A DNA stretch of 64,000 bases from Levilactobacillus lanxiensis. GTDB lineage: Bacteria > Bacillota > Bacilli > Lactobacillales > Lactobacillaceae. Positions 8,255 to 62,390 of the stretch are shown here, one piece after another. A program made the position numbers and the translations under genes. The DNA lies in NCBI RefSeq assembly GCF_016861655.1, contig NZ_BOLN01000003.1, positions 186,001 to 250,000 on the forward strand, in the 5' to 3' direction. The notes under the pieces are model-generated. The model did not search any database. It worked only from the letters and a program-made list of their open reading frames with translations, and was not told the origin of the DNA. Within the stretch, counting starts at the first letter, position 1. Every line of letters starts with the position of its first letter.

Positions 8255-8424
8255 ATAGGTTGGCTTAACAGAATGTGTTTAGGGCGTTTAGTTAGATAAC
8301 CTTAGCTACTAAGCCATTGTCGAATCAAACAGATTCAGCAAGAACAATAACAATTAAAAGTTAACGCCAAAGACAATTGAAAAGATAACCAGAACCGCCG
8401 ACTTAACGGTTTAAGCGGATGTTA

Positions 8425-8605
8425 GCCGCAGGGTGGGGGAAAATGGTCTCAGCCGTGGGAATTGCCTTAGTAGCGGGTTGGGCTGCTTAGGCAATTGGTA
8501 GCTTTGAGACTCGTTCTTAGAGGCTCAAAGTAAGTTGGTAGACCGTTCTTTGGCTACCAACGTCCGCCCACAGCGTTCCGGTCCATTTTCCCCCGCCCGG
8601 AGGCG
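8425..8605 (+). repeat. Dispersed hairpin element, type A (copy 4)
   Basis: The outer arms GGGTGGGGGAAAATGG and CCATTTTCCCCCGCCC pair. Here GGTGA is replaced by GGGGGA on one side and TCACC by CCCCC on the other, a compensatory change. Internal hairpins are TTGCCTTAG/CTTAGGCAA, CTTTGAGAC/GGCTCAAAG and TTGGTAGACC/GGCTACCAA. Confidence 0.85.
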
Positions 8606-8686
8606 ACAAAACGTCCGCTCAAACCTTAAGAAAGTTTCAAGGGCGGGGGAGGCTGGGGCAAACCCTAGCGTTTTTCACAAGCGGCG

Positions 8687-19479: not shown

Positions 19480-19492
19480 TAACTTAACTAGA

Positions 19493-19590
19493 ACACTAGG
19501 GGTGTCCACGACTGGGCTGAGATGCGGGTGACCGCGATCCCTTGGAACCTGTCAAGTTCAGACTTGCGGAGGGAATGTGTCGTGGCACCC
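19493..19590 (+). promoter_or_regulatory. TPP (thiamine pyrophosphate) riboswitch
   Basis: The THI-box parts are in order: CTAGGGGTGTC at the start, the pyrimidine-sensing CTGAGATGCGGGTGACCGCGATCCCTTGGAACCTG broken into its conserved words CTGAGA, ACCC-like turn and GAACCTG, then GACTTGCGGAGGGAA closing the pyrophosphate arm. It controls the thiM-thiD-thiE genes downstream. A terminator hairpin follows at 19594-19634, so TPP binding should end transcription there. Confidence 0.92.
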
Positions 19591-19593
19591 AGA

Positions 19594-47825: not shown

Positions 47826-49295
47826 ATGCAATCAAGTTTAAAGAAATCACTTTACTTGGGCTTAGCCGCATTAAGCTTTGTCTCAGTTGCCGCAGTATCA
47901 ACTACTGCTTCAGCTAAGTCATATGCTAAGGCTGGTGCCTACACGAGTTTGGAAAAGACTGACGCTACTACTCGTAACGTTGAAGCTACTGGTACTAACG
48001 CTTTATACACTAAGCCAGGTACTGTTAAGGGTGCTAAGGTTGTCGCATCTAAGGCTACTATGGCTAAGTTAGCTGCTTCAAAGAAGTCAGCTGACTACTT
48101 CCGTGCTTACGGTCAAAAGACTACTGATCGTGGTTCAGTTTACTACCGTGTAGTTACTATGGACGGTAAGTACCGTGGTTACGTTTACGGTGGCAAGTCT
48201 GCTACTGCCTTTGCTGGTGGTATCAAGTCTGCTAATACCACTACTGAAGCTACTTTACCAACTGCTACCAAGGGTTACTACTTGAAGGACAGCAAGACTA
48301 ACACTCTCTGGACTGCACCTAAGTACACTCAATACAAGGCAAGCAAAGTAAGTCTTTACGGTGCTAAGGCTTCAGATACCTTTACTGTATCTAAGGCTGC
48401 TACTAAGACCCGTGAAGGTTCATTGTACTACTACGTAACTGATGACAACAACTCTTCTGTTGCTGGCTGGGTTTACGCTAAGGGCTTGACTACTGATGCA
48501 CAAACTACTTTTGATGAAACTACTCAAGTACAAGTGCTTGTAAAAGCCACTGATGGTACTACTTTGAAGACGTTCAGCTACAATGCTGGTCAAACTTCTA
48601 AGGGTGCTGCAGTTGCCGACACTGTCTTATTTGACAGTGCTACTGATCCTAAGAACTTGAGTGATGGATTAGAAGCTGCTGCTACTAAGGCCTTGACTGG
48701 TACTGGTTACAGTGTTGCCAAGGGTGACACTGTTAACATGACTGCCAACGTTAAGACTGGTGACACTATTACCCTTTATGCAACTAAGGGCCAAGAAGCC
48801 ATCACTAAGGTCACTGCAATGCGTTATGACTCAAATGCTACGAGTTCTAAGTCTACTGCATTCTTGACTACCACTACTCCTGTAGCCGCTACTGCATACT
48901 ACACTGTTTCTATGCCTAGTGTTACTACTGCATTCAGTGGTACTAACGGTGCTGCATACACCGCAGCTGATGTTGAAGCTAATGTTAAGGCTAACAAGGC
49001 CCAAACGTTATCTTCTGGTACTATCTACTTGCCAGCTGGTACTCCAGCGGATGCAGATGCTACTGTCTTGGCTGGTGCTAGCTTGACTAACACTGATGTA
49101 GCTAACCCAACTAACACTGTTGCTTACCACGTTGTTTACACTTTGAAGAACGGTGTTGCTGGTACTTATGGTAATGCTGATGGCGCCCAAGCACTTTACA
49201 CGGGTACCTTGGTACAAGGTGCTGCTGCTACTACGACTCCAGATGCAGGTAACTCATGGGGTAATGGCGCAGCTTCAGTTGTTGCACCCAGCTAA
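47826..49295 (+). CDS. S-layer protein (L. brevis Slp type), highly expressed
   Basis: A 489-residue secreted protein with signal peptide (residues 1-30, ending ASA-KSY). The N-terminal half has two basic wall-binding modules ([22 protein letters not shown]..., [36 protein letters not shown]..., [20 protein letters not shown]). The C-terminal half (about 230-489) is Thr/Ala/Val-rich and should form the lattice. This order (binding part first) is that of L. brevis SlpA/B/D. Codon use is extreme: GCT, ACT, GGT, AAG and TAC dominate, unlike nearby genes, which points to very high expression. ATG 47826 follows GGAGGAAG; 47805 precedes that site. Confidence 0.92.
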
Positions 49296-49984: not shown

Positions 49985-50359
49985 CTATTTTGTATAGCTA
50001 ACCATTAACCGAATGAAGAGGGCATCATCAGTCAGTACTTCATGGATAATGCTCTGAAAAACGTTGGCCATCCCCTCATCATGCACACTATAGCTATGGC
50101 TCAACGGGCCTAGTAAACCAACTAACTTACTCAGCATTTCATCGGCCTCTTTAGTCGTGTCCTTACCAGTAGCCTCCGTGTAAGTCGACAAGTCATAGAC
50201 CTTTGCGAGGAGTTCTCCCTCACGGACGGTAAGCTGTCCCGGCTGTAAGTCGCCTGACTTCAGCTCTTTAATGGTTTCGACATCAACGTGTGTGATATGA
50301 GCAAAATCTTCAGCGCTCATTCTGGGAATCACAAGCATTATTTTTTCCTCAATTGTCAT
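49985..50359 (-). CDS. Small HTH-like protein, unknown
   Basis: A 124-residue protein. Residues 1-55 (MTIEEKIMLVIPRMSAEDFAHITHVDVETIKELKSGD to VREGELLAKVYDLS) look like a helix-turn-helix of the XRE kind; the rest is helical and acidic. ATG 50359 follows GAGGAGGTG. It may regulate the nearby S-layer or secreted-protein genes, but nothing in the sequence shows that. Confidence 0.65.
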   Translation of the reverse strand: MTIEEKIMLVIPRMSAEDFAHITHVDVETIKELKSGDLQPGQLTVREGELLAKVYDLSTYTEATGKDTTKEADEMLSKLVGLLGPLSHSYSVHDEGMANVFQSIIHEVLTDDALFIRLMVSYTK

Positions 50360-50734
50360 GTAAACACCTCCTCGCATTGAGTAGGAAATAATAGCATAGG
50401 TTACCCATTAATGGATTGAAAAGTTGGGAAATATTGGGTGCTTGCTACAAATATTCGAATGGATGAACATTTTGCGCTATCAGGGGATACAATCTTTTGC
50501 AGCTGGTATTTACCGCAGTACTGCGAGATCTGAGAAGCCTGTTACCCATGGTTTAAGTACTACCAGCGGATTTTGTGGCAAGGGAGCTACCACTAATAAA
50601 TCAAGGGAAATTTCTCTTGAAGGATGAGAGTGACTCTCTTTAATCCTGAAACCAGTATGGAAGTTCACCGTTACTAGCCTTGCAGTAAAGTCGTCGTTCT
50701 GGTAGTCACACCGCTTATGTGGTCTAATCAAGGT

Positions 50735-50888
50735 GTTCCCAGGATTCATCGTCGGGTACTGGGAACAGCTCTACCCCATATGGCTGGTCCGCCAATCGAG
50801 ACGCTAGGTCGTTGCGGTAAAGGACCATAAAAAGCTAGTTGTATCGAGTGATTTCGGAAAAAATCGCTCGGTAGAGCTAGCCTTTTAT
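50735..50888 (+). ncRNA. Candidate small RNA 1 of the array
   Basis: An extended -10 TGG-TCTAAT (50723-50728) is followed by hairpins TGTTCCCAG/CTGGGAACA and GGTCC/GGACC and a terminator (GCTAGTT...CGAGTGATTT/AATCGCTCG...GCTAGC, then CTTTT). No frame with a ribosome site fits inside. Confidence 0.5.
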
Positions 50889-51028
50889 TTGGGTTGAGAT
50901 TTGATTTTTTGGGCGTTGGGTCACTGCTAATTTACCTAAGGGTTAGTGATACGGCTTAGTATGTCAGTTGGACTTTTCTCCGTGGCGTCTAGTTGGTAGC
51001 TGGGGCCGAATGGTGGTTTAATGAAGAC

Positions 51029-51153
51029 AGTTCAGCGACGCGGCAACTCTTCTAACCGGGGGAGTGGGGGTCGTTGAATGAGAAATGCGTGTCGATCACA
51101 CAAATACCTGTTTTGCCTGAGCGAGCTATGTTGCCGATTACTCAGGTTTTTTT
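51029..51153 (+). ncRNA. Candidate small RNA 2 of the array
   Basis: Extended -10 TGG-TTTAAT (51017-51022), GAAGAC at the expected start, hairpin TTCAGCGAC/GTCGTTGAA, then terminator CCTGAG/CTCAGG with seven T residues. Confidence 0.5.
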
Positions 51154-51484
51154 GTTGGGTTGGGGTTGGTTGGTGACTTGGAGATTGGGTGATTGGTGAG
51201 TGCTAGGTGGTCTCTGGTTGTGCTGGTGCGCGTTTGACTGTTGATCTTGGTGAGTAGGTGCTTGGTGATTAGTTGAGTTTAGGTGGCTGATAGAGGGCCT
51301 CCTAGCTGATTGGAACTTTAGGTTGTACATAATTGTGATTAAGATGAGTTTTCAGCCTGGCTAGTTCCACTGAGAATTGGCAATTTATTGAGGTTGCCAA
51401 CCCAGTATGGCAAGTGGCCGTTACTAGCTCGTGAATCCAAGCGGGTAATTGGTAGTCGACCAGGATATGTGGTGTAATCAAGCT

Positions 51485-51620
51485 GTTCCTAGAGAACAGA
51501 GTCATCTTGTCCTTCGGGAGCGGATTGAACGCCCTCCCCCAAGGGCTCCAGCGAATACAAGAGAATAGGTCCCAGCAAGTCGTTGTTTCGTAAGCGATGA
51601 CTTGGTGGGGCTTGTTCTTT
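51485..51620 (+). ncRNA. Candidate small RNA 3 of the array
   Basis: Extended -10 TGG-TGTAAT (51473-51478) with TTGGTA 18 bp upstream. Hairpins TGTTC/GAACA and GGGAGcG/CGcCCTCCC, then CCCAGCAAGTC/GACTTGGTGGGG ahead of CTTGTTCTTT. Confidence 0.5.
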
Positions 51621-51759
51621 GGCTGAGTTCTAGTGATGGAAGTGGCTTAGCCCTAGGGGATTAGGGATGGGCGACGACCACTAATCTGTTTGAACAGGGT
51701 CTCGGCGCAACTAGGGTGAATGCCTCGCGGAATGACTGATTCTATGGTGTAATGAAGAT

Positions 51760-51887
51760 GTCGGCAGGCGGAAAACTGTCAGCATTTGCATTTCACCCAG
51801 CGATCTGTAAGCCATCTAATTGTTTTCAGATTACTGGGTCTCCTTTAGGAGGTAGCGAGTGAATTTCACGCGTAGCCTCCTTTTTAT
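51760..51887 (+). ncRNA. Candidate small RNA 4 of the array
   Basis: Extended -10 TGG-TGTAAT (51748-51753), GAAGATG start, and terminator GGAGGTAGCGAGTG/CACGCGTAGCCTCC followed by TTTTTATTT. No protein frame is supported. Confidence 0.5.
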
Positions 51888-52036
51888 TTAGAAAGATGGG
51901 CCACCGCAAGTGAACTACAGCTAGTGGGTAAGCAATGGGCGTGGCTCCCCATTCGGTTGCGCCAGTGACGGGGAGTAACTATGGGAATTCGGCGGTGTTT
52001 TTAGGTTATTCGGCTGATAGGTGGTTTAATGAAGGC

Positions 52037-52266
52037 GAGCTAAGGGAGAACATAAACTTTCCTTAACCCGTAGGCTGGCGCCACAGAGAGTCCCCATGGT
52101 GTCAAACTCTAGTTTGTCCCCCACTCGGGGTTCTCAACAATTCAGAGCCAAGCGATTGCGTATTCAACGTGACCGGTTGGTAGATCTCAAACAGGGTCGC
52201 TTCTGAATTGAATTTAATGCAGGAGAAGGTATTCTCGCTACGAAAACTCGGGGGATACCTTCTTTT
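52037..52266 (+). ncRNA. Candidate small RNA 5 of the array
   Basis: Extended -10 TGG-TTTAAT (52025-52030), GAAGGCGAG start, hairpin TTAAGG-like arms early in the transcript, and terminator AGAAGGTAT/ATACCTTCT with TTTT. The stretch 52270-52858 contains no further gene; part of it is G/T-rich. Confidence 0.45.
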
Positions 52267-52858
52267 ACTGTGGTTTTGGTGCTGAGGGAATAGAATCGGT
52301 TGGATGACTAATTTGGGTGACCTTTTTTGGGGGGTGGCTGGGTTGGTCGTTTTTGTTTGGAATGGGGTGGTTGAGGCGGCTGGCGTGATTGGCGGAGTGG
52401 TTGATGGTGAAAGCTGGCACATAGGCATTTGTGACTAGTTTAGCCATAAATAAGTAAATGGTATCTTGAAAAAGTTGTCAGCGAATGACAACTTTTTTCG
52501 TGACGTTAATTTCGCGTTTTCTTCATTAAATGTCGAATACTTATATACTATTTATCGTTTATTGTATTGACCACATTGGTGAAAGTGTGGTAGCATGTGT
52601 TATTAACTTAATGTTATTGTTACTGCATAGAAAAAACTAATGCACTAAGTCGACAGTTAAGATGGGAGTGGGATGATGGAAAATTAATTGAGAAGATTGG
52701 CTTCGTGGAAGTGGGCACCACGTTGCTGGCATGAATCGTTATCGGACTGTTGGTAGTGACCTCACTATTGACAGTTAGCATGGCAAGACACTTTAGACTT
52801 AACAACAGAAACAAAAATTTGACGAATGAAGGCGATCAACAGAAAAAGGAGAAAACAT

Positions 52859-54646
52859 ATGAAAAAATGGGTTAAAGGCATACTAGCCTTATCAATAATT
52901 GCTGGAATTGGATTTGGTGGGAACTATCTTTGGTCTAAGACTAATCATAGTCGGTTGGATGATAGTTCGATTGAGGCTGATGCGGATGAAAATCTGAATA
53001 GTAATAGTTCGGATCAGATTCAGCTTAAGCTCATCACGGATGGATCTAATAAGTCGGGTATGGTAACGGTTCTTCTTGGGAAATCGGGACTTAGCCAAGA
53101 GGAAGTTACCGGAAAATCTTATAAATCGATACTGAATACAGTGAAAGAGAAATCAGGAAAAGATTACCCGTTGTTGATGAAGTATTTTAGTGTTAAATCC
53201 CTAGAACCGGAAAACAACACGGCATTGAACGAGATTATAAATGAACTTGGAACGCTTGAAGATTTTGAGGTAAAAAGAAATTTGGTTCCAGAGTCTACTA
53301 CAGGATATATTTTGGATGAAGAACAGTTTGAGAAAAATTTAAGAAAGATATTTACTGACGATGGGCCTGGTGATAACGGCGCTACAGGTATAGTACAAGT
53401 TCCATACAAAACTAACGATGTAACCGCAAACGTAACCTTGAAACAAGCAGTAGATGGTGGACCTACAAAAGACCATGGTACCTTTATTATGAAGGGCGCT
53501 CACGGTCTCACGGTTTCCTTAGACCATTCGGACTTGAAAGTGAAAGCTAATAGCATTGGAAATCACACGCTGTCTCAAGATACAATCACTTTTGATAAAG
53601 GTGAAGATGGAGAGCAGAACATTACGATTTGGCTCATTCCTAAAGACATGAAGAACAGCAAAACGTTCATTTATGTTGATGACAAAACAGATAAAGTGAT
53701 TAAGGAAGACGTTGTTGAAGGTGATTATGGACAGCAAATGGAACATGTTTATCCAGATATTGACGGATATATCTTAAACAGTGAGAAAAAGTCATGTAAC
53801 TTTACTTTTGAAGCAGATCCTGGCCAAAGCGAACAAGAAGAAACGGTTCTTTACACTAGGAAGGATGAGTCTACTGGCAACGTTCCAGGTGGTGGCGTCA
53901 CAGAACCAGACAACACCGACAAAGAAGACAACAACGATGTCGACACGAACACTGGCAATAACAACGGCAACACCAACAACGTCACTAAGTCCGTAACGCC
54001 ATTCAAGGTCTACGGCAAGCAAAAACTCTACCGTTACTCTCACGCTAATTTCACCAACAAACGGCGGGTTCAAGCCCACGCCAAGAAGGTTAAGGCGCAC
54101 GCCCCAGTCTTCACGGTGGTTGGCAAGACGACTGCCAGCAATGGCGCCGCTCGTTACAAATTAAGCGACGGCACGCACATCACGGCTAGCGACAAGTATG
54201 TCGGCAAGCTGTACTGGAACGGTAGCTACAAGAAGCTGCACGTGACGAACCCCAAAGGCATCAACACTTACAAGACTAACGCGTTAAGCGGCAAGGTCAA
54301 ACATGTCAAGCAAGGCACGACGGTAGCGGTCAAGCAAATTTCCAAGAAGAACGGCATGACGCGTTACCAACTGGCCAATGGCAAGTATATCTCTGGTAGC
54401 AAGAAGTTAGTCTCACCGACGAAGCCGAAGCAGGTCAAGAAGGTGAAGGCGAAGACGACCGTTCGACTCTACAAAGACGTGGACTTGAAGAAGGTCGTTA
54501 AGACGTACAAGAAGGGCAGTGTCATCAACGTTAAGGGTTGGGACCACTCCCACGGCAACGTTCACCACGTTTCCGGCTACAAGCGTTACAAGGTCGCTGG
54601 CGGTTACATCACGGCTAACAGCAAGTACGTGAAGATTGCCCAGTAA
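52859..54646 (+). CDS. Secreted or membrane-tethered DUF5776 protein (cluster gene 1)
   Basis: A 595-residue protein. Residues 1-27 (MKKWVKGILALSIIAGIGFGGNYLWSK) form a signal or signal-anchor, followed by an acidic stretch. A central region to about 365 contains a MucBP-like piece (TFIYVDDKTDKVIKEDV to CNFTFE). An Asn/Asp linker (about 370-395) leads to four SH3-like modules (KQKLYRYSHANF, GTHITASDKYV, KGINTYKTNALSGK, GGYITANSKYVK). ATG 52859 follows AAAAAGGAG; 52826 does not. The AT-rich 5' half and GC-richer module half differ clearly in base use, so the gene is a mosaic. Confidence 0.85.
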   Translation: MKKWVKGILALSIIAGIGFGGNYLWSKTNHSRLDDSSIEADADENLNSNSSDQIQLKLITDGSNKSGMVTVLLGKSGLSQEEVTGKSYKSILNTVKEKSGKDYPLLMKYFSVKSLEPENNTALNEIINELGTLEDFEVKRNLVPESTTGYILDEEQFEKNLRKIFTDDGPGDNGATGIVQVPYKTNDVTANVTLKQAVDGGPTKDHGTFIMKGAHGLTVSLDHSDLKVKANSIGNHTLSQDTITFDKGEDGEQNITIWLIPKDMKNSKTFIYVDDKTDKVIKEDVVEGDYGQQMEHVYPDIDGYILNSEKKSCNFTFEADPGQSEQEETVLYTRKDESTGNVPGGGVTEPDNTDKEDNNDVDTNTGNNNGNTNNVTKSVTPFKVYGKQKLYRYSHANFTNKRRVQAHAKKVKAHAPVFTVVGKTTASNGAARYKLSDGTHITASDKYVGKLYWNGSYKKLHVTNPKGINTYKTNALSGKVKHVKQGTTVAVKQISKKNGMTRYQLANGKYISGSKKLVSPTKPKQVKKVKAKTTVRLYKDVDLKKVVKTYKKGSVINVKGWDHSHGNVHHVSGYKRYKVAGGYITANSKYVKIAQ

Positions 54647-54682
54647 CCATTTGCTAAGGGAATCAGGTATCACAGGAACACC

Positions 54683-54715
54683 AGGTGCGGGACTCTCGCA
54701 GGTCGCGCACCTTTT
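54683..54715 (+). terminator. Terminator-like hairpin after cluster gene 1
   Basis: AGGTGCGGGA pairs with TCGCGCACCT, followed by TTTTG. The same element, with GGTCTCCCACC on the right, follows cluster gene 3. Confidence 0.6.
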
Positions 54716-54763
54716 GAAAATAAGGATGGATGAAGGCGATTAAACAAGATAAGGGGACTATCT

Positions 54764-55549
54764 ATGATGAAAGCAATTAAAGCACTACTGGCGTTAGCGG
54801 TCGCATTGGCTATCGGTGTCGGCTGGAACTTTATCTGGTCGAAGACTAGCCACCACAAGAACCTGATGACGCGGACGACCTCGGTCAGAGCCGAGGCGGA
54901 TGAGAAGGGCAAGGCCGGTTTCAAACTCCAGCCATTTACCAGTGTGAGTGGCATTCGCCAACGGATCACGGCGGACGGCGTCAAGGTCGACCTGTCTGGG
55001 TTGAACGACGTCAGTGGGTTGCGCTACGGCATGCTACTGAATGAGCTGGCGCACCTGAAGTCGGCTAAGCGGGTGAACTACTGGCAAGCCCTGAAGTACG
55101 CGGAACTGAAGAGCAGTGAGGGCGAAGGCGCCAAGCTGTGGGGCCAACGGCTGGATAACCAGATTCGCGGCCAGTACGGTGAAAAGACCTTAAAGGTGGC
55201 TAAGAACCTGACATTTTCCAAGAGCATCAGTCCGTGGGGCTATTCGGCGAAGTCCAAGATGACGACGGTCGACCCGTTCTATCCCAATGAGGATTTGGAT
55301 GTGGCCTACGCGGTGAACAACCAGGTCCTGACGATTGAGGTTCACCTGGACTCCGTTTACGGGGCGAAGCTGGCGTCGTACCAGATTCACGGGGTCCGCG
55401 GCAAGACCGTGAACCTAGAGAATTCAGAGATTGCGTCGTTACTGCAGAGTAATGGCCGGATTGGCTATCAGATGGACCGCAAGACGGTGACGTTTAATGA
55501 TCATGACTTGCAGGTTGAGAAGGTTGTGTTGGAGCCGGTGGTGTCTTAA
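54764..55549 (+). CDS. Secreted protein without DUF5776 modules (cluster gene 2)
   Basis: A 261-residue paralogue with the same start as its neighbours (MMKAIKALLALAVALAIGVGWNFIWSK) and a related N-terminal domain (LNDVSGLRYGMLLNELAHLKSAKRVNYWQALKYAEL; ends IASLLQSNGRIGYQMDRKTVTFNDHDL). It stops before the linker and modules. It lacks the wall-binding part and may be tethered only by the N-terminal helix. GC content is higher than in genes 1 and 3. AAGGGGA precedes the start. Confidence 0.75.
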   Translation: MMKAIKALLALAVALAIGVGWNFIWSKTSHHKNLMTRTTSVRAEADEKGKAGFKLQPFTSVSGIRQRITADGVKVDLSGLNDVSGLRYGMLLNELAHLKSAKRVNYWQALKYAELKSSEGEGAKLWGQRLDNQIRGQYGEKTLKVAKNLTFSKSISPWGYSAKSKMTTVDPFYPNEDLDVAYAVNNQVLTIEVHLDSVYGAKLASYQIHGVRGKTVNLENSEIASLLQSNGRIGYQMDRKTVTFNDHDLQVEKVVLEPVVS

Positions 55550-55602
55550 GTACAAATAATATTGATGATGAATGAAGGCGATGTAAAAGAATAGGAGAAA
55601 AC

Positions 55603-57282
55603 ATGATGAAGAAATGGATAAAAGGACTACTGGCACTGTCCGTAGCGATTGGTGTCGGCATGACCTGGAACTTTGTCTGGTCGAAGAATAGCCATAACAA
55701 GCAGACGGTGACGCCGACTACTTCTATACAGGCGGATGCGGATACGGTTAATCGAATTGAGCTTCAACCGGTTGATGAACGTGGTAATGAGATTATGGAA
55801 GCTATTGAAGTTGGACTGGGTGGAACGGGGGTTAAGGATACAGATTCATTTTCTAAGGTATTAGCGAATGTAGCCAATACACAAGATGGAATAGATTATA
55901 TCGATGCCTTAAAATACTTTTCGCTGGTCAATAATAATTGGGGCCGTAATCGGGAAGTTTTTGGGAGCAAATTGAGAAAACAATTAAGAAACAGTAGTAC
56001 AGCTGCTTTTGCAGATACTTTAAGATCAAATGATGACGAAAGGTATACTTTAAATATAGGTAAACTTGAAACCAATTTGAAACAAATGGTGAAAAAAGGA
56101 AAGCTTGACATTCCTTTTACTAAAAGCTACTTGGAGATGAACATTCTTGTTAGACGGCAGACGGTTGAAGTACCTAGAGAGCATAGTGAAGAAAAATATC
56201 CATACTATGGAATCAAAGGGACTATCGTTGATTTAGAATATTCAGATATCTATTCAAGTAATATGACTAGATCTGCGGATAAGCTGGTATTTGATGGTAC
56301 TTCTCCACAGTCAGAAGTAGTGCGTATGATTGCTAATAAAGCACTAAGAACGGTAACATTTAACTATCTTAAGGCAAGTGATAATTCAAAACTACTGGAC
56401 TCAGAACTGGTTCATGGACATGTTGCAGACGAAAGGGTTTATGAAGCTCCTGAGATTAAAGGGTATGTAGCCAGTCCGGCAGAGCATAAGGTTAATTTTG
56501 ACTTTCAACAAGGTGAAAGTAAGAACTTTAACTTTGAGTACACAGAGACAGCGACTGGAAACTCCACGGATAATGAGAATACTGATAAAAAATCAGATAA
56601 CAACAACGTAACAGCCGCTCCCAAGCCTGTAACCCCATTCAAGGTCTACGGCAAGCAAAAACTCTACCGCTACTCCCACGCCAATTTCACCAACAAGCGG
56701 CGGGTTCAAGCCCACGCCAAGAAGGTGAAGGCCCACGCCCCTGTGTTTACGGTGGTCGGGACGACGACCTCTAGCAACGGCGCGGCCCGGTACCAGCTGA
56801 GCGATGGCACGCACATCACGGCCAACAGCAAGTATGTCGGCAAGCTGTACTGGAACAGCGCCTACAAGAAGCTGTACGTGACGAACCCTAAGGGCATCAA
56901 CACTTACAAGAGCACGGCGCTCGGGCAGAAAGTGGTGCACGTCAAGCAAGGCACGCCACTGACGGTCAAGCGCATGGCCAAGTACAACGGCATGACGCGG
57001 TACCAGCTGGCGAGTGGCCAGTATATCTCCGGCAGTAAGAAGTTAGTCTCACCAACGAAGCCGAAGCAGGTCAAGCGGGTGAAGGCGAAGACGACCGTTC
57101 GGATTTACAAGGACGTGAATTTGAAGAAGGTTGTTAAGACGTTTAAGAAGGGTAGTGTCATCACCGTTAAGGGTTGGGATTACTCCCATGGCAACGTCTA
57201 CCACGTTTCTGGCTACAAGCGCTACAAGGTTGCCGGCGGGTACATCACGGCTAACAGCAAGTACGTGAAGATTGCCCAGTAA
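55603..57282 (+). CDS. Secreted or membrane-tethered DUF5776 protein (cluster gene 3)
   Basis: A 559-residue paralogue of cluster gene 1: helix (MMKKWIKGLLALSVAIGVGMTWNFVWSK), unrelated-looking acidic AT-rich middle (about 45-330) with a MucBP-like end (TFNYLKASDNSKLLDSELV to HKVNFDFQ), Asn-rich linker and the same four modules (about 345-559), about 90 percent identical to gene 1. The abrupt change from divergent to near-identical sequence at the linker suggests gene conversion of the modules. TAGGAG precedes the start. Confidence 0.85.
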   Translation: MMKKWIKGLLALSVAIGVGMTWNFVWSKNSHNKQTVTPTTSIQADADTVNRIELQPVDERGNEIMEAIEVGLGGTGVKDTDSFSKVLANVANTQDGIDYIDALKYFSLVNNNWGRNREVFGSKLRKQLRNSSTAAFADTLRSNDDERYTLNIGKLETNLKQMVKKGKLDIPFTKSYLEMNILVRRQTVEVPREHSEEKYPYYGIKGTIVDLEYSDIYSSNMTRSADKLVFDGTSPQSEVVRMIANKALRTVTFNYLKASDNSKLLDSELVHGHVADERVYEAPEIKGYVASPAEHKVNFDFQQGESKNFNFEYTETATGNSTDNENTDKKSDNNNVTAAPKPVTPFKVYGKQKLYRYSHANFTNKRRVQAHAKKVKAHAPVFTVVGTTTSSNGAARYQLSDGTHITANSKYVGKLYWNSAYKKLYVTNPKGINTYKSTALGQKVVHVKQGTPLTVKRMAKYNGMTRYQLASGQYISGSKKLVSPTKPKQVKRVKAKTTVRIYKDVNLKKVVKTFKKGSVITVKGWDYSHGNVYHVSGYKRYKVAGGYITANSKYVKIAQ

Positions 57283-57314
57283 CCATTTGGCAACTGACGG
57301 ATCATCCGGAACAC

Positions 57315-57348
57315 CAGGTGCGGGACTCTCGCAGGTCTCCCACCTTTT
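57315..57348 (+). terminator. Terminator-like hairpin after cluster gene 3
   Basis: AGGTGCGGGA pairs with TCTCCCACCT, then TTTTG. Copy of 54683-54715. Confidence 0.6.
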
Positions 57349-57396
57349 GAAAATAAAAATGAAGACTGAAGGCGATTTTAAAAAAGGAGAAGAACT

Positions 57397-57804
57397 ATGA
57401 GTGTATGGACTAAAGGGATTCTATCAATAATGGTGGCGGCGAGCGTGGGGTTTGGTTGGAACTATGTTTGGACGAAGAGTAATCACTACACCGGCCGGCT
57501 GTATGAGAGCAGCACGCTGACGGCGGAGGCAGAGGGTGCGCACGGGCTGAGTTTACGGACCGATAAGAAGGGGGAAGCAGCTCCGTTCAAGGTCTACGCG
57601 AAGCAAAAACTCTACCGCTACGCCCAACCGACCTTTACCGCCAGCCAGCGGGTTCAGGTCTACCCCCAGGAAGCAAAGGCCCACGCGCCGGTGTTTACGG
57701 TGGTTGGGAAGGCCCGCTCGAGCAATGGCGTGGCCCGGTATAAGCTGAATGATGGGACGTATATCACAGCTGACCAGCAGTATGTTCAGGCTGTTGGGGA
57801 ATAG
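57397..57804 (+). CDS. Short secreted protein with a single DUF5776 module (cluster gene 4)
   Basis: A 135-residue paralogue: helix (MSVWTKGILSIMVAASVGFGWNYVWTK), a 30-residue spacer and one module (PFKVYAKQKLYRYAQPTF to GTYITADQQYVQ). It keeps the two ends of the family without the middle domain. AAAAAAGGAG precedes the ATG. It closes the cluster. Confidence 0.75.
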   Translation: MSVWTKGILSIMVAASVGFGWNYVWTKSNHYTGRLYESSTLTAEAEGAHGLSLRTDKKGEAAPFKVYAKQKLYRYAQPTFTASQRVQVYPQEAKAHAPVFTVVGKARSSNGVARYKLNDGTYITADQQYVQAVGE

Positions 57805-57819
57805 TAGATTGGGTTGGGG

Positions 57820-57842
57820 AGTCGCCGTGGGGCGGCTTTTTT
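57820..57842 (+). terminator. Intrinsic terminator of the cluster
   Basis: GTCGCC and GGCGGC pair around GTGG, followed by six T residues. Confidence 0.75.
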
Positions 57843-57959
57843 ACGTTTTCGTGGGTGTTTAACCCAATCATCCCCACCAGTTAGGCAACTCACCGCCACT
57901 AGCCCCATCCCCTGATCGGCTAGCTACCGGTCACCCCGGGATCGTGGTTTACTGAAGGT

Positions 57960-58374
57960 GTTCAAGCTAGCGAAGAGAATTCGTGACTTGAGCCGTCGAC
58001 CGGTCCGAATCCTAGAAAGCAGCTGTTAACGCATAACCGTTGCGGACGCGAGAGGTAGGGCCGGCACCACCCCAGTGACTGCCTAGGCGGCTACTGGTAT
58101 TTGTTAGGAAGCGCGAATCCGGCCGGGAACCATTGGCTGATGGCAAGGGGCGCCTGCGACCCGTGAGAAGTTTCATGCAGGTTTAACCTTGTTTGACCGA
58201 GGGGTTGAGGCCATAGATAGGTGGTGCGCAGCCGCGGTCCACACTGGGCGTCTTGCGCAGGACGCTTCCAAGTCAGAAGCTCATGATTGTTGTGGGCTGG
58301 CCTTAACAATGTGAATGAGATAGTGACGCTTGGCTGGGGAGGATTGTTCTTCCTGGGTGGGCGTTGCTATTTTT
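57960..58374 (+). ncRNA. Candidate long small RNA 6
   Basis: Extended -10 TGG-TTTACT (57948-57953) and GAAGGTG start. Hairpin TTCAAG/CTTGAG early; terminator ATAGTGACGC/GCGTTGCTAT with TTTTTG at 58320-58374. No frame with a ribosome site. The end is uncertain and it may be more than one unit. Confidence 0.35.
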
Positions 58375-58476
58375 GTGGGGTGGGCTGGAATCATACGCTG
58401 GGAAGGTGAGTGACTAAACCCAATCCCCTGAGACAGATTTTTACGTATCTAGTGAGGCGCGTGGTTTACTGAAGGC

Positions 58477-58566
58477 GTTAGGTACAGTTGGCAACTCGCC
58501 TAACGGTTGTACACTAGCTTGGTCAAGGTCGGTCTTAGCGGCGATCTTGATCAAGCTAGCTTTTTG
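58477..58566 (+). ncRNA. Candidate small RNA 7
   Basis: Extended -10 TGG-TTTACT (58465-58470), then hairpin CGTTAGG/CCTAACG directly at the start and terminator CTAGCTTGgTCAAG/CTTGATCAAGCTAG with five T residues. About 90 nt. Confidence 0.6.
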
Positions 58567-58591
58567 GTTTGGACACGGATCAGAAAAAAGG

Positions 58592-58685
58592 CAAAAAAAT
58601 AAGACAACTCTAGGAGCAAAGGAATTCTCGGCGTATGCCTTACTCCCATTCGGGAACCCAGCTGTATCCTTCAGAGTTGTCTTGA
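58592..58685 (-). ncRNA. Candidate small RNA closed by its own terminator
   Basis: On the minus strand TTGACG (58720-58715) and TAAAAT (58696-58691) are 18 bp apart. The transcript begins with AAGACAACTCT, and this 5' end pairs with AGAGTTGTCTT of the terminator, so the whole 94-nt RNA is one closed structure. Inside are TCCCGAATGGGA and GGCATACGCC mini-hairpins. A seven-T tract ends it. Confidence 0.7.
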
Positions 58686-58745
58686 GTCGTATTTTACAGG
58701 GAGCTTGAGTCGTTCGTCAACCAATGTTTTTAGCAGGATGACGTC

Positions 58746-58784
58746 AAAAAGCTTGCGACTACCGGAAAGGGCGGCCACAAGCTT
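58746..58784 (-). terminator. Terminator of the second S-layer gene
   Basis: On the minus strand AAGCTTGTGG pairs with GTCGCAAGCTT, followed by TTTTTG, 74 bp after the stop codon. Confidence 0.7.
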
Positions 58785-58857
58785 ATTTGCGTTGCGTTTG
58801 AAACAGGCGACTACAGCCCAATATGGTTAAAGGTTAAACAATCAAGCAAAAATCAAT

Positions 58858-60222
58858 CTACTGCGCAGTCATGGTACTAGACCCACTCGTCAGCGCGTAT
58901 GAACCGGCGGCGTTGTAGGTCAGAGCCAGCGACGTGCTGCCAAAGGTGATGCCGGTTGGCAGAGAGGCCGTGTTCAGTGTGTACTTGGTGTATAGCTTGG
59001 CACCGGTTGAGTTGGTTGACTGGGTGGTGCCGTCAGATTCGTAAACGGGGACGTAGATCGTGTTCAATTTATCACTGGTCAACGCGGCACTCAGGTCGCT
59101 TTGAGAAGCCGTGGTGCCACTGACGCCGGTGTAGTCCTTGGTGAAGTTAGACTGGGCGGTGGCGACGGTCGTACTGGCATCGGCGGCCAGGGCGTCGGTG
59201 GTGGTCAATTTGTCATTGGCCCCGGTCGTACTGCTCAACGCGGACGAGGAGGCAATCGTGATACCCGCGGCGGCGTTGGCGGTGACAGGCACGGTCACGC
59301 TGCTGCCCCAGGTGTCGGTGCTGGTCACGTAGGTATTGGTGGAACTGGTCAGGCTGTAGCCGGCTGGTAGGTAGGTTGATGAGCCGATGGCCGTGTTGAC
59401 GGTCGCGGCGTCCGTGGTGCCCAGGGCGGCCCCGGATTTGGCATCACTCGCGGTGATCAGAACGCCACTCTTGACGCTCTTGCCAGTACTGCTGTCGACG
59501 TAGTTCACGGTGACGCTCTTGGCGCTGGTGATGGCGCTGTTCTCACCCGTTTGCAGGGCGCCGGCGTAGATCCAGCCGCTGACCTTGGTATTGTTGTTGT
59601 CGGTCACGTGGTAGTAGAGCGAGCCTTCCTTGGTCTTGGTGGCGGCGGAGTCGACGGTAAAGGAATCCGTGGCGAGGGCGCTGGTACTGTTGATGACCTT
59701 GGTGGCCTTGTATTGGGTGTACTTCGGCGCGCTCCAGAGGGTGTTGGCGGTGCCCGGACTCTTCAGGTAGTAAGTCTTGGTGGTTGGCGTCGTGGCCGCG
59801 GTGGTGGTGCTAGCGGTCTTGATGCCCCCGGCAAATGTCCCCGCGGTGGTGCCACCGTAGATGTAGCCGCGGTATTTACCATCCATGGAAACGACGCGGT
59901 AGTAAACGGACCCGCGGTTGGTGGTCTTCTGGCCGTAAGCGCGGAAGTAGCTAGCGGACTTGTTGGAGCTGGCCAGGGACTTCATGGTCGCCTTGGAAGC
60001 CACCACTTTGGCCCCTTTGACCGTGCCGGGCTTGGTGTACAGCGCGTTGGTCCCGGTGGACGCCACGTTGCGGGCGGTGGCGTCCGTCTTCAGGGTGGTG
60101 TAGGCCCCGGCGGTCGCATAGGACTTGGCGGAAGCGCTCGTCGTCCCGGCGATGGTCGCGACACCGGCGAGGCTGAGGGCAGCCAGGCCGAGGGTAACTG
60201 ATTTCTTTAAACTAGATTGCAT
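58858..60222 (-). CDS. S-layer protein (L. brevis Slp type), probably weakly expressed copy
   Basis: A 454-residue paralogue of the 47826-49295 protein. The signal peptide and the two wall-binding modules are closely alike ([58 protein letters not shown]); the C-terminal lattice part is different. Codons are GC-rich (GCC, GCG, ACC, GGC), without the strong bias of the first gene, so it is probably expressed at a lower level or only in certain conditions. ATG 60222 follows AAAGGAG; the frame from 60297 has no site. L. brevis strains often carry several slp genes, used alternately. Confidence 0.9.
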
Positions 60223-60600: not shown

Positions 60601-60667
60601 TGGGGGTATGGTATACTTTCGATACGCTAATGAACGGGTGGTTAAACGCAGTGGGGAGGGGTGCCGA

Positions 60668-61900
60668 ATGGCCAGTGTCAGAGTGGATGTGAAGCCGGAA
60701 ATTTTGGCGTGGGTCGCGACGAACGCCCAGAGCTTAACGGATAAATGGCGTCAGCAGTTGGCGACTTGGATTGCCGGAGAAAAACAGCCAACAGTTAAGC
60801 AATTACAACAGATGAGTCGCTCGGCCAAGGTGCCCTTTGGTTACTTTTTCTTGGACCGCGTGCCGCAAGAAGACTTACCACTCTTGAAGTACCGGACGGT
60901 GGCAAATGAAACGCTGACCCAACCGAGCCGAGACTTGATCGATGTTATCACGGACATGGAAACCAAGCAGGAATGGTTGCGAGATTACCGACAGAAGCAG
61001 GGCTTTAGCCAGAACCGGTTTAACGGCGCAGCACAGCGAGTGGCAGGCTTATCCCAGCTGACGGCGACGCAACAGGCAGAAGAAATCTTAACGTTGCTAG
61101 AGTTAGAGCCAGGGTGGAATGAGGGCCCGAAGTCGTTCGACCGGTTTAAACAGTTGCGACAGCATGCCGAAGCTGCCAACTTGACGGTGATGCTGGACGG
61201 GTGTGTGCAGGGTAATTCACACCGGCCTTTAGATGAAGATGAGTTTCGTGCGTTTGCGATGACGGATGCGTATGCACCCATGATTTTTATCAACACCCAG
61301 GATGGCTACCGGGCCCGGCTATTTTCGTTGGTCCATGAGCTGGTTCACATCTGGTATGGGCAGTCGGAACTGTTTAACTTTGACTTTGAGTCGACAACAC
61401 TAGTCCGTAATCCGGTGACGGAGCAGCGGGTGAATCAAATCAGTGAGGCCATTCTGTTTGACCAGGCGACCTTTGAGCGGTTGTGGACGGCGTCTGCCGG
61501 ACAGAAGCCGACGAGTCGACTCAAGCTGGTCGCTGGTAGCCTGGGAACCAGTCCGCTGTCTGCGGGGATTCGCGCAGTGCGGCTGGGGTTAGTTACCCAA
61601 GCGACTCTCGATGACTTAAAGCAAGAGCTGCGCGCAGATTATCAGCAGTACAAGCAACGGCAACGCAATCAAACAGGTGGTCCGTCGCTCTATCAGGTGC
61701 GCGCGGCTCATATTGATCATGCCTTTGTGGTTGACGTGGCCCGGAGTGCTCAGGCGGGAGACACGAGCTATCCGGCGGCCTTTGCGTTATTAGGCGTTCG
61801 GCATGGGGCTGGGTTTGATAAGCTTTTGGCAGCGATAGAGGGGACGGGGAGTCATAGTGGAAATGGGTTCTCGAACGAGCTATTTAATGGATTCAAATAG
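60668..61900 (+). CDS. XRE-ImmA/IrrE-type metallopeptidase (COG2856)
   Basis: The 410-residue protein has an N-terminal XRE-like HTH (about 10-55, WVATNAQSLTDKWRQQLATWIAG), a linker and the zinc-peptidase motif SLVHELVHIWYG (HExxH, about 222-233). The family includes ImmA and IrrE, which cleave repressors; fused HTH-ImmA proteins act as the antitoxin-like half of pairs with PIN or other toxins. ATG 60668 follows GGGAGGGG. The downstream DUF4411 gene overlaps its end by 44 bp. Confidence 0.85.
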   Translation: MASVRVDVKPEILAWVATNAQSLTDKWRQQLATWIAGEKQPTVKQLQQMSRSAKVPFGYFFLDRVPQEDLPLLKYRTVANETLTQPSRDLIDVITDMETKQEWLRDYRQKQGFSQNRFNGAAQRVAGLSQLTATQQAEEILTLLELEPGWNEGPKSFDRFKQLRQHAEAANLTVMLDGCVQGNSHRPLDEDEFRAFAMTDAYAPMIFINTQDGYRARLFSLVHELVHIWYGQSELFNFDFESTTLVRNPVTEQRVNQISEAILFDQATFERLWTASAGQKPTSRLKLVAGSLGTSPLSAGIRAVRLGLVTQATLDDLKQELRADYQQYKQRQRNQTGGPSLYQVRAAHIDHAFVVDVARSAQAGDTSYPAAFALLGVRHGAGFDKLLAAIEGTGSHSGNGFSNELFNGFK

Positions 61901-62390
61901 TTTTATTGCACCCTTTAGAAATTACTATGCCATGGGCCACTTTCCCAGTTACTGGGGCTGGTTAAAGGCGATTATTGTTCAGCCAGATTCACGGGTTAAG
62001 GTTCCCTTGGCTGTCTATGAGGAGTTGACGTTAGGTGGGGATGACCTTTCTAAATGGACTCAGGGAAATTTGCAAGGTATCACTTATGACTCAGATACGA
62101 TTGAAGTTTGGGCTAAATTTGGTGAGATTATTAATTACGTTCATAACTCCGGTTGTTATTATGGTGCAGGGAAAATCAATTGGGATCAGATTGGAAAAGC
62201 AGACCCGCTTTTAATTGCGATTGCGGCAGTTAAGGGTTGGCAGATTGTCACGTTTGAGCAGTCTTCAGGCAATGTTAGTCCGAAAAATCCGACTAAGAAG
62301 GAACCTAAGATACCGGATGTTGCACGGCAGTTTGGCGTGAGGTGTGTCAATCTGTATGAGGTTGAAACGGCATTTGCGTTGCGTGTTTGA
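61857..62390 (+). CDS. DUF4411 (PIN-like) protein, putative toxin
   Basis: The 177-residue protein begins with YLMDSNSFIAPFRNYY, the first acidic patch of the DUF4411 PIN-like fold; VYEEL, KADPLLIAIAAVKG and VTFEQ supply further acidic positions. DUF4411 genes typically lie just after an XRE-ImmA/IrrE gene, as here, and are predicted RNases of toxin-antitoxin type. The GTG at 61857 follows GGGGAG; ATG 61863 is possible. The 44-bp overlap means tight coupling. The second half of the gene is more AT-rich than the first gene. Confidence 0.85.
   Translation: MEMGSRTSYLMDSNSFIAPFRNYYAMGHFPSYWGWLKAIIVQPDSRVKVPLAVYEELTLGGDDLSKWTQGNLQGITYDSDTIEVWAKFGEIINYVHNSGCYYGAGKINWDQIGKADPLLIAIAAVKGWQIVTFEQSSGNVSPKNPTKKEPKIPDVARQFGVRCVNLYEVETAFALRV

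Follow-up and report, generated by a model that had tools for sequence, protein, structure and literature searches.

What kind of element recurs seven times around a cluster of secreted-type protein genes in Levilactobacillus lanxiensis, and does an eighth, minus-strand element beside it belong to the same set? The locus lies at ~50.6-58.7 kb of the window, a stretch of 64,000 nucleotides corresponding to C3:186001-250000 of a 3.03-Mb genome, and holds four paralogous genes of secreted-type proteins, three of which carry DUF5776; frames of at least 130 amino acids are absent from the 2.4 kb and 1.05 kb flanking these four genes. An initial annotation of this DNA described seven plus-strand small-RNA units (U1-U7), five before and two after the protein genes, and one further RNA on the minus strand. 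The array of U1-U7 is real as described. We lean towards a reading in which U1-U7 are activator-driven small RNAs that pair with envelope messenger RNAs (mRNAs), the minus-strand RNA representing a separate family linked to DUF3644 proteins and serving as an orphan antitoxin.

The shared feature of the seven units is an exact box, TGGTNTAMTNAAG, found on the plus strand at positions 50720, 51014, 51470, 51745, 52022, 57945, and 58462. When one mismatch was allowed, eight matches were obtained in the window, a number reached by none of 100 shuffled sequences. The exact box occurs 11 times in the entire 3.03-Mb genome, with seven of these copies in the array (binomial P 3e-16), and the unusual density of small-RNA-like units remarked on in the initial annotation is borne out. 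The GAAG near the expected start was likewise recovered in five units, U1 and U3 having CAAG instead. From the box to the end of the terminator, the units measure ~104-430 nt; the terminators of U1, U3, U4, U5, U6, and U7 were found by terminator scans, while that of U2 was seen in the fold only.

U1 (50653-50887, fold z -5.5) comprises a conserved upstream element, the box at 50720-50732, a 5' hairpin, a body, and a terminator, and U2 (50947-51153, box 51014-51026, z -1.3) consists of an upstream element, box, body, and terminator. U3 (51403-51620, box 51470-51482, z -5.8) is a diverged duplicate of U1, with similarity both upstream (52/65, z 8.7) and in the body (93/120, z 6.2), as had been claimed. 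U4 (51642-51885, box 51745-51757, z -4.7) displays an exposed linker, UCUCCUUU, at 51839-51846, and is followed by U5 (51921-52266, box 52022-52034, z -4.0). Beyond the protein genes lie U6 (57878-58374, box 57945-57957, z -2.1), with a predicted RNA of ~418 nt and an upstream element related to that of U1 and U3, and U7 (58395-58566, box 58462-58474, z -5.8), with a predicted two-hairpin RNA. U2 and U6 are weak as structured bodies because their fold z scores reach only -1.3 and -2.1. The upstream element is common to U1, U3, and U6 (z 4.2-8.7), U6 scoring z 5.6 and 4.2 against U1 and U3; U2 and U3 give z 3.5 and the remaining pairs z below 2.5. Among the bodies, U1/U3 is the only similar pair, the other compared pairs giving z below 3, with the U6 body left out on account of its length. 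RNA structure starts right after the box, and the 79 nt leading up to it are unstructured (z -1.5 to +0.8); the idea that the conserved upstream part is itself RNA was rejected on these values. None of the units matched an Rfam family at the gathering score or at E up to 5, and in 50300-59000 two hits fell below threshold (E 3.9 and 4.5), both at chance level and outside the unit bodies.

The box was initially read as an extended -10 promoter element, and this holds as far as the TG is concerned, which is present in 7/7 units; it is not of the plain type, as the position corresponding to -11 is never an A. The A at -11 is the base that SigmaA flips out in order to open the promoter. In a comparison with sites of the form TGNT[N]TAMT lying no more than 145 bp ahead of the 341 genes predicted, A was found at -11 in 21 of 25 comparable gene-upstream boxes versus 0/7 array boxes (P 1e-4), and all four matches to TGGTNTAMTNAAG elsewhere in the genome have this A as well. 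This suggests that the array promoters are activator-dependent, and from seven promoters lacking the -11 A, together with a conserved and unstructured upstream part, we infer a dedicated activator. Each unit is self-contained: ~67 bp of DNA precede a deviant extended -10, after which come a predicted start ~7 nt later, a hairpin near the 5' end, and a terminator. The activator, bound at ~-80 to -55 from the start, would switch all units on together. When the promoter module was searched for as a sequence profile, the 14 training loci were recovered at E ~2e-9 or better, followed by a match in G008 at E 0.005 and then by weaker ones; three marginal matches of this profile proved on inspection to be ordinary gene promoters.

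In DNA searches of 35 genomes of the genus, the array was present in two, its own and that of L. wangkuiensis 6-5(1), where U1-U6 occur in the same order. DNA search of L. wangkuiensis found neither U7 nor the minus-strand RNA, and U7 had no DNA match among the 34 other genomes. The L. wangkuiensis array carries two further secreted-type open reading frames (ORFs) of 513 and 610 amino acids, and at two large gene differences between the species, the sequences become alike again 67 bp ahead of the next box. Substitutions between the two amount to 23/486 (4.7%) in promoters, 74/1198 (6.2%) in transcripts, and 154/895 (17.2%) in spacers, the divergence lying below that of the spacers for promoters (P 2e-12) as well as transcripts (P 2e-15), a comparison that supports selective constraint on the units. 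Transcript divergence was 1.3% for U1, 3.1% for U2, 10.1% for U3, 19.5% for U4, 7.3% for U5, and 2.9% for U6. A 130-amino-acid protein encoded on the minus strand at 49985-50377 is matched only in the same 2/35 genomes as the array and is, by this association only, a candidate regulator; it gave no match in Pfam or NCBIfam and a weak match to a PHROG, itself of unknown function, and its structure model (pLDDT 52.6) was unusable and left out of the reasoning.

Other likenesses are few. A single unit-like element upstream of the orthologous protein gene in genome G025 was the only one found among the remaining genus genomes. Box matches were inspected at 20 places among the matches listed (19 in other genomes and one in its own), most of them inside open frames; a box in G030 shares an 800-nt noncoding stretch with sequence that looks like a structured repeat. 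Plasmid and phage collections gave no match to 50640-52600, and in viral contigs neither a relative of the secreted protein nor an exact copy of the upstream element turned up.

Whether the hairpins are conserved in the relative, a check proposed with the initial annotation, can be answered clearly for U4 and in part for U5. The U4 ortholog, despite 25 substitutions, is predicted to fold at -49.8 kcal/mol versus -32.8 (standard deviation 4.6) for random placements of the same changes, 1/400 of which were as stable; three of its pairs are broken versus 7.4 expected (4/400), and seven are changed on one side. U5 has two pairs broken versus 5.4 expected (6/400). Taken together, the constraint, the fold conservation of U4 and partly of U5, and the structure from the box onward support, at the level of sequence comparison, a reading of the units as small-RNA genes.

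What these RNAs might pair with was addressed by an accessibility-weighted interaction scan over 341 start regions, taken from a simple gene calling that let in some false genes. The unpaired linker of U4, identical in L. wangkuiensis, is predicted to pair with the Shine-Dalgarno sequence of three of the four neighbouring genes, and U4 ranks the neighbouring secreted genes 3, 17, 23, and 99 of 341. Its anti-Shine-Dalgarno 6-mer has an unpaired probability of 0.99, an exposure equalled by 0/200 shuffles. U1 is a weak second, ranking the neighbouring genes 24, 71, 102, and 103 via short matches to their leader boxes. Preference for secreted genes at large gave P 0.000 as computed for U4 and P 0.094 for U3. 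Exposure of C-rich 4-mers was reached by shuffles in 24/200 cases for U1 and 28/200 for U3, the shuffle counts for U5 and U6 were 119/200 and 188/200, and U2 and U7 have no exposed UCCC or anti-Shine-Dalgarno site. The RNAs would most likely act in trans, by base-pairing with the start regions of envelope or secreted-protein mRNAs in the manner of the LhrC RNAs of Listeria, and the U4 linker would suit three of the four neighbours.

Several results weigh against this reading and are brought together here. The proposed targeting of secreted-protein leaders stands for U4 and weakly for U1, whereas U2, U3, U5-U7, and the minus-strand RNA showed no consistent preference for the neighbours in the 341-region scan. 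Moreover, GGAG is enriched in secreted genes (57/78 versus 99/211), and k-mer controls indicate that the strength of the Shine-Dalgarno sequence suffices to explain the preference of U4 for secreted genes. U4 taken alone is no more conserved than the spacers (19.5%), and one of its pairs is changed on both sides versus 0.8 expected by chance. Fold energy compared with random mutants was borderline for U2 and U3 (23/400 and 22/400) and did not discriminate for U1, U5, and U6 (60/400, 90/400, and 58/120). The constraint itself rests on one pairwise comparison because the array is found in two species only, and the genes of the neighbouring proteins show differences at 9/121, 13/94, and 15/66 fourfold-degenerate sites, so that part of the low divergence could be due to recent common origin. 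A generic consensus scanner, which requires A at position 2 and short loops, called 0/7 boxes as promoters, and its totals were near chance (17 promoter-like sites versus 10.9, and 8 terminator-like sites versus 7.7). A scan for box, 5' hairpin, and terminator recovered U1, U3, U4, U6, and U7, with one extra site (L113) in 354 kb of other sequence from the same genome; it missed U2 and U5. A loose scan for extended -10 sites returned 45 in 418 kb, with six in the array interval, five of which are units.

Three other accounts of the array have to be weighed against these small RNAs. The units could be orphaned leaders (attenuators or riboswitch-like elements) of lost genes, their terminators having once controlled a downstream gene; the strong terminators, the structured 5' regions devoid of an Rfam match, and the gain and loss of genes between units all agree with this. 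Yet constraint persists although five units stand in a row here, and U3-U5 in both genomes, with no gene in between, and U4 keeps its fold, which leaves such an origin rather unlikely. It is distinctly less probable that the conserved part works as DNA, with the box and upstream element as protein-binding sites and the hairpins incidental. The upstream part is indeed conserved and unstructured, and the box lacks the key -11 base; however, the bodies together are nearly as conserved (6.2% versus 4.7%), and five of the seven fold far better than their shuffles.

More doubtful still is the proposal that the units encode short peptides, such as type I toxins or leader peptides. The frames inside the units are short and without a well-spaced Shine-Dalgarno sequence, in agreement with the initial finding of no supportable coding frame, those of U2-U5 are not kept in L. 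wangkuiensis, and by eye no typical toxin peptide is present. Two frames do persist in the relative, a GTG-initiated one of 24 codons at the 5' edge of U1 and a TTG-initiated one of 41 codons in U6, the changes in both being too few to judge coding selection. Activator-driven small RNAs remain the reading preferred for U1-U7, and the array offers a testable case in which small-RNA genes sharing one unusual type of promoter have accumulated around a rapidly changing surface-protein locus.

The minus-strand RNA (58589-58696, with a predicted transcript at ~58685-58592 and promoter hexamers at 58720-58691) is a different matter. Its own promoter, TTGACG-18-TAAAAT, matches the consensus at 10/12 positions and its fold z is -2.3, in line with the promoter and self-folding first described; its inclusion in the array has to be withdrawn, for it belongs instead to an RNA family that in phages is paired with DUF3644 proteins. 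A blastn search recovered it from 14 phage records, with E <= 8e-8 in 11 (best 2e-15), the hosts being Listeria, Streptococcus, Flavonifractor, and Corynebacterium in addition to a faecal sample. Several of the records represent one phage or nearly identical ones, and the matches named Eggerthella and Darwin span only 23-26 nt. It was also matched on a Fructilactobacillus plasmid. The exact 19-nt core held by the RNA, GGGTTCCCGAATGGGAGTA, occurs in 78 IMG/VR contigs, with 57 distinct 110-nt sequences among the uncut ones. In an alignment of 45 RNAs (43 distinct), 12 of 24 pairs are changed on both sides, as high a number being reached by 0/500 shuffles and slid controls lying far lower. The family covariance model (R2) scores the minus-strand RNA at 98.1 bits, this RNA being one of its training sequences and the blastn phage matches being independent of it, and nothing else in 50000-59500 exceeds 13.7 bits. 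Among 295 genomes sampled from the order, the model placed the RNA in 16, its own included, at 18 places. Judged from these alignments, the minus-strand RNA belongs to a family that is conserved, shows covariation, and has no match in Rfam.

The link to DUF3644 lies in the gene order. With a profile built from five phage proteins, a DUF3644-like ORF was detected on the stretch in 53/78 viral contigs, all 55 hits being on the opposite strand and downstream of the RNA, that is, convergent with it, and in 12/12 loci listed of the 53, the end of the nearest such ORF is 57-65 nt away from where the core starts. All five phage proteins combine DUF3644 with an EC042_2821-like endonuclease domain and match PDC-S19, a candidate defence system in PADLOC. 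DUF3644 is described as a HEPN family in the part of the 2013 survey consulted (PMC3710099). In view of the fixed geometry of gene and RNA, the conserved core, and a partner of the HEPN class, the likeliest role of the family RNA is that of an antitoxin or partner of the DUF3644 protein, probably orphaned here: no convergent DUF3644 gene turned up in a search of the window, a further 354 kb of its own genome, and the L. wangkuiensis locus, the rest of the genome not having been searched. By analogy with AbiF and RCd22, the RNA probably binds and restrains the protein, and the copy without a gene would act as an orphan antitoxin against incoming DUF3644 elements.

Counting the other way, 25/78 viral loci lack a DUF3644-like ORF, some since the contig ends (at least L211 and L228 end before the ORF position), and at the order-level places the ORF is absent on the stretch in 8/18, being present in 10/18 (three in pieces). 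The RNA might alternatively be an attachment site, or a guide or activator RNA of the protein, and integrase genes are often found a few kb or less away from it; the position and orientation of the integrase vary, however, while the ORF end stays 57-65 nt from the core start. This fixed distance counts against an attachment site and not against a guide or activator, and the alternative as a whole appears possible, if somewhat unlikely. Hardly credible, by comparison, is a processed 3' end or terminator of the upstream surface-layer-like gene, from whose stop the RNA is 172 nt removed on the same strand, given that the RNA has its own 10/12 promoter, recurs in phages with unrelated neighbours, and covaries across 43 distinct sequences. 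With the antitoxin or partner role retained, it may be tentatively put forward that the locus unites two things: a lineage-specific regulon in which the off-consensus -11 base lets one activator fire seven mostly unrelated RNAs together, and a member of a widespread RNA family that is the missing half of DUF3644 (PDC-S19) defence, an RNA-HEPN toxin-antitoxin pair, with orphan copies on bacterial chromosomes and next to phage tRNA genes being counter-defence antitoxins. If the RNA partners PDC-S19, this would explain how the HEPN RNase is silenced and why some phages have the RNA without the protein gene.

In four viral contigs (L199, L238, L245, and L252), the RNA core stands beside transfer RNA (tRNA) genes with no protein gene on the stretch, and such tRNA-adjacent copies are placed as a phage counter-defence RNA might be. 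At two other viral loci that likewise lack a DUF3644-like ORF, an Abi_2 protein is encoded 161 nt downstream of the RNA (L225), and a SIR2-like protein 206 nt downstream (L203).

The four secreted-type genes span 52826-57804 on the plus strand (52859-54646, 54764-55549, 55603-57282, and 57397-57804), and their leaders contain a box, ATGAAGGCGAT or similar, at 52820-52836, 54728-54741, 55568-55583, and 57366-57377. This box before the start is kept in the secreted-type family in several species, including species without the array, and it resembles GAAGGCGA of the units and the end of the array box. Two related surface proteins, 51% identical and presumably surface-layer-like, are encoded at 47826-49292 (plus strand) and 58858-60222 (minus strand) and bracket the array in inverted orientation; recombination between their genes could invert the whole locus. 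Further along, the stretch 60608-62390 encodes first a protein weakly matched to the IrrE-like (M78) type and then a 177-amino-acid protein, a pair that we take to be toxin-antitoxin-like in look. The window also contains a thiamine pyrophosphate (TPP) riboswitch at 19488-19592 (plus strand) and, at ~8400-8620 (plus strand), what by eye is a structured repeat of the dispersed kind, ~200 nt long, enclosing several hairpins and bordered by the arms GCCGTGGGAATT ... CCCACAGCGTTCC. Several copies of this repeat occur in ~420 kb (L114:15173, L123:11948, L128:11584, L118:7772, L072, and L067), a similar sequence exists in another species, and the window copy has no Rfam match.

How do these elements compare with known systems? 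For the minus-strand RNA, the closest parallel is AbiF of a Clostridioides difficile prophage, which, according to the portion of PMC12373285 consulted, the RNA RCd22 binds directly and neutralises, both in cis and in trans. Both cases, as far as that portion goes, pair a phage-borne HEPN-type protein with a structured RNA, ~100 nt long, whose end lies within a terminator or ahead of it; the DUF3644-linked RNA is convergent with its gene and forms one composite structure, whereas the AbiF RNA lies upstream of its gene and has two abiF motifs. The AbiF RNA model, RF03085, matched neither the minus-strand RNA (E up to 5) nor 11 loci of the family (E up to 0.5). PDC-S19, a DUF3644 protein with the EC042_2821-like domain, is the protein partner of the minus-strand RNA family; PADLOC models the protein, and no mention of an RNA partner for PDC-S19 was found there. 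None is mentioned for DUF3644, EC042_2821, or PDC-S19 in the part consulted of the 2013 HEPN survey (PMC3710099) either, the one paper in which these names were found, preprints and most subscription papers lying outside the search.

For the array, a small RNA beside the same secreted-protein family is already represented by the Lacto-3/Ref68 RNA (RF02840) in several Levilactobacillus genomes. It lies directly upstream of a secreted-protein gene in L042, L047, and L050 and, by eye, in L048 and L051, and one match per genome was found in 34/35; the copy in its own genome (C3:89179-89309) falls outside the window. None of the array units matches RF02840. In LhrC, the copies are close copies of one another, while only U1 and U3 are recognisable duplicates in the array and its promoters lack the A at -11. 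LhrC1-5 of Listeria are under LisR with a promoter element upstream of -53, and their CU-rich single strands bind the Shine-Dalgarno region of a surface adhesin mRNA, as stated in the portion of PMC4132741 consulted. To the extent of that portion, the array is comparable in having several small RNAs, an upstream promoter element common to at least U1, U3, and U6, an anti-Shine-Dalgarno site in U4, and a surface-protein setting; LhrC carries three UCCC-type sites, whereas an exposed anti-Shine-Dalgarno site is clear only in U4. The array is thus like LhrC in layout, yet no member of it because the bodies are not homologous, and it is best placed beside LhrC as a cluster of small-RNA genes to which a function can be assigned with moderate certainty.

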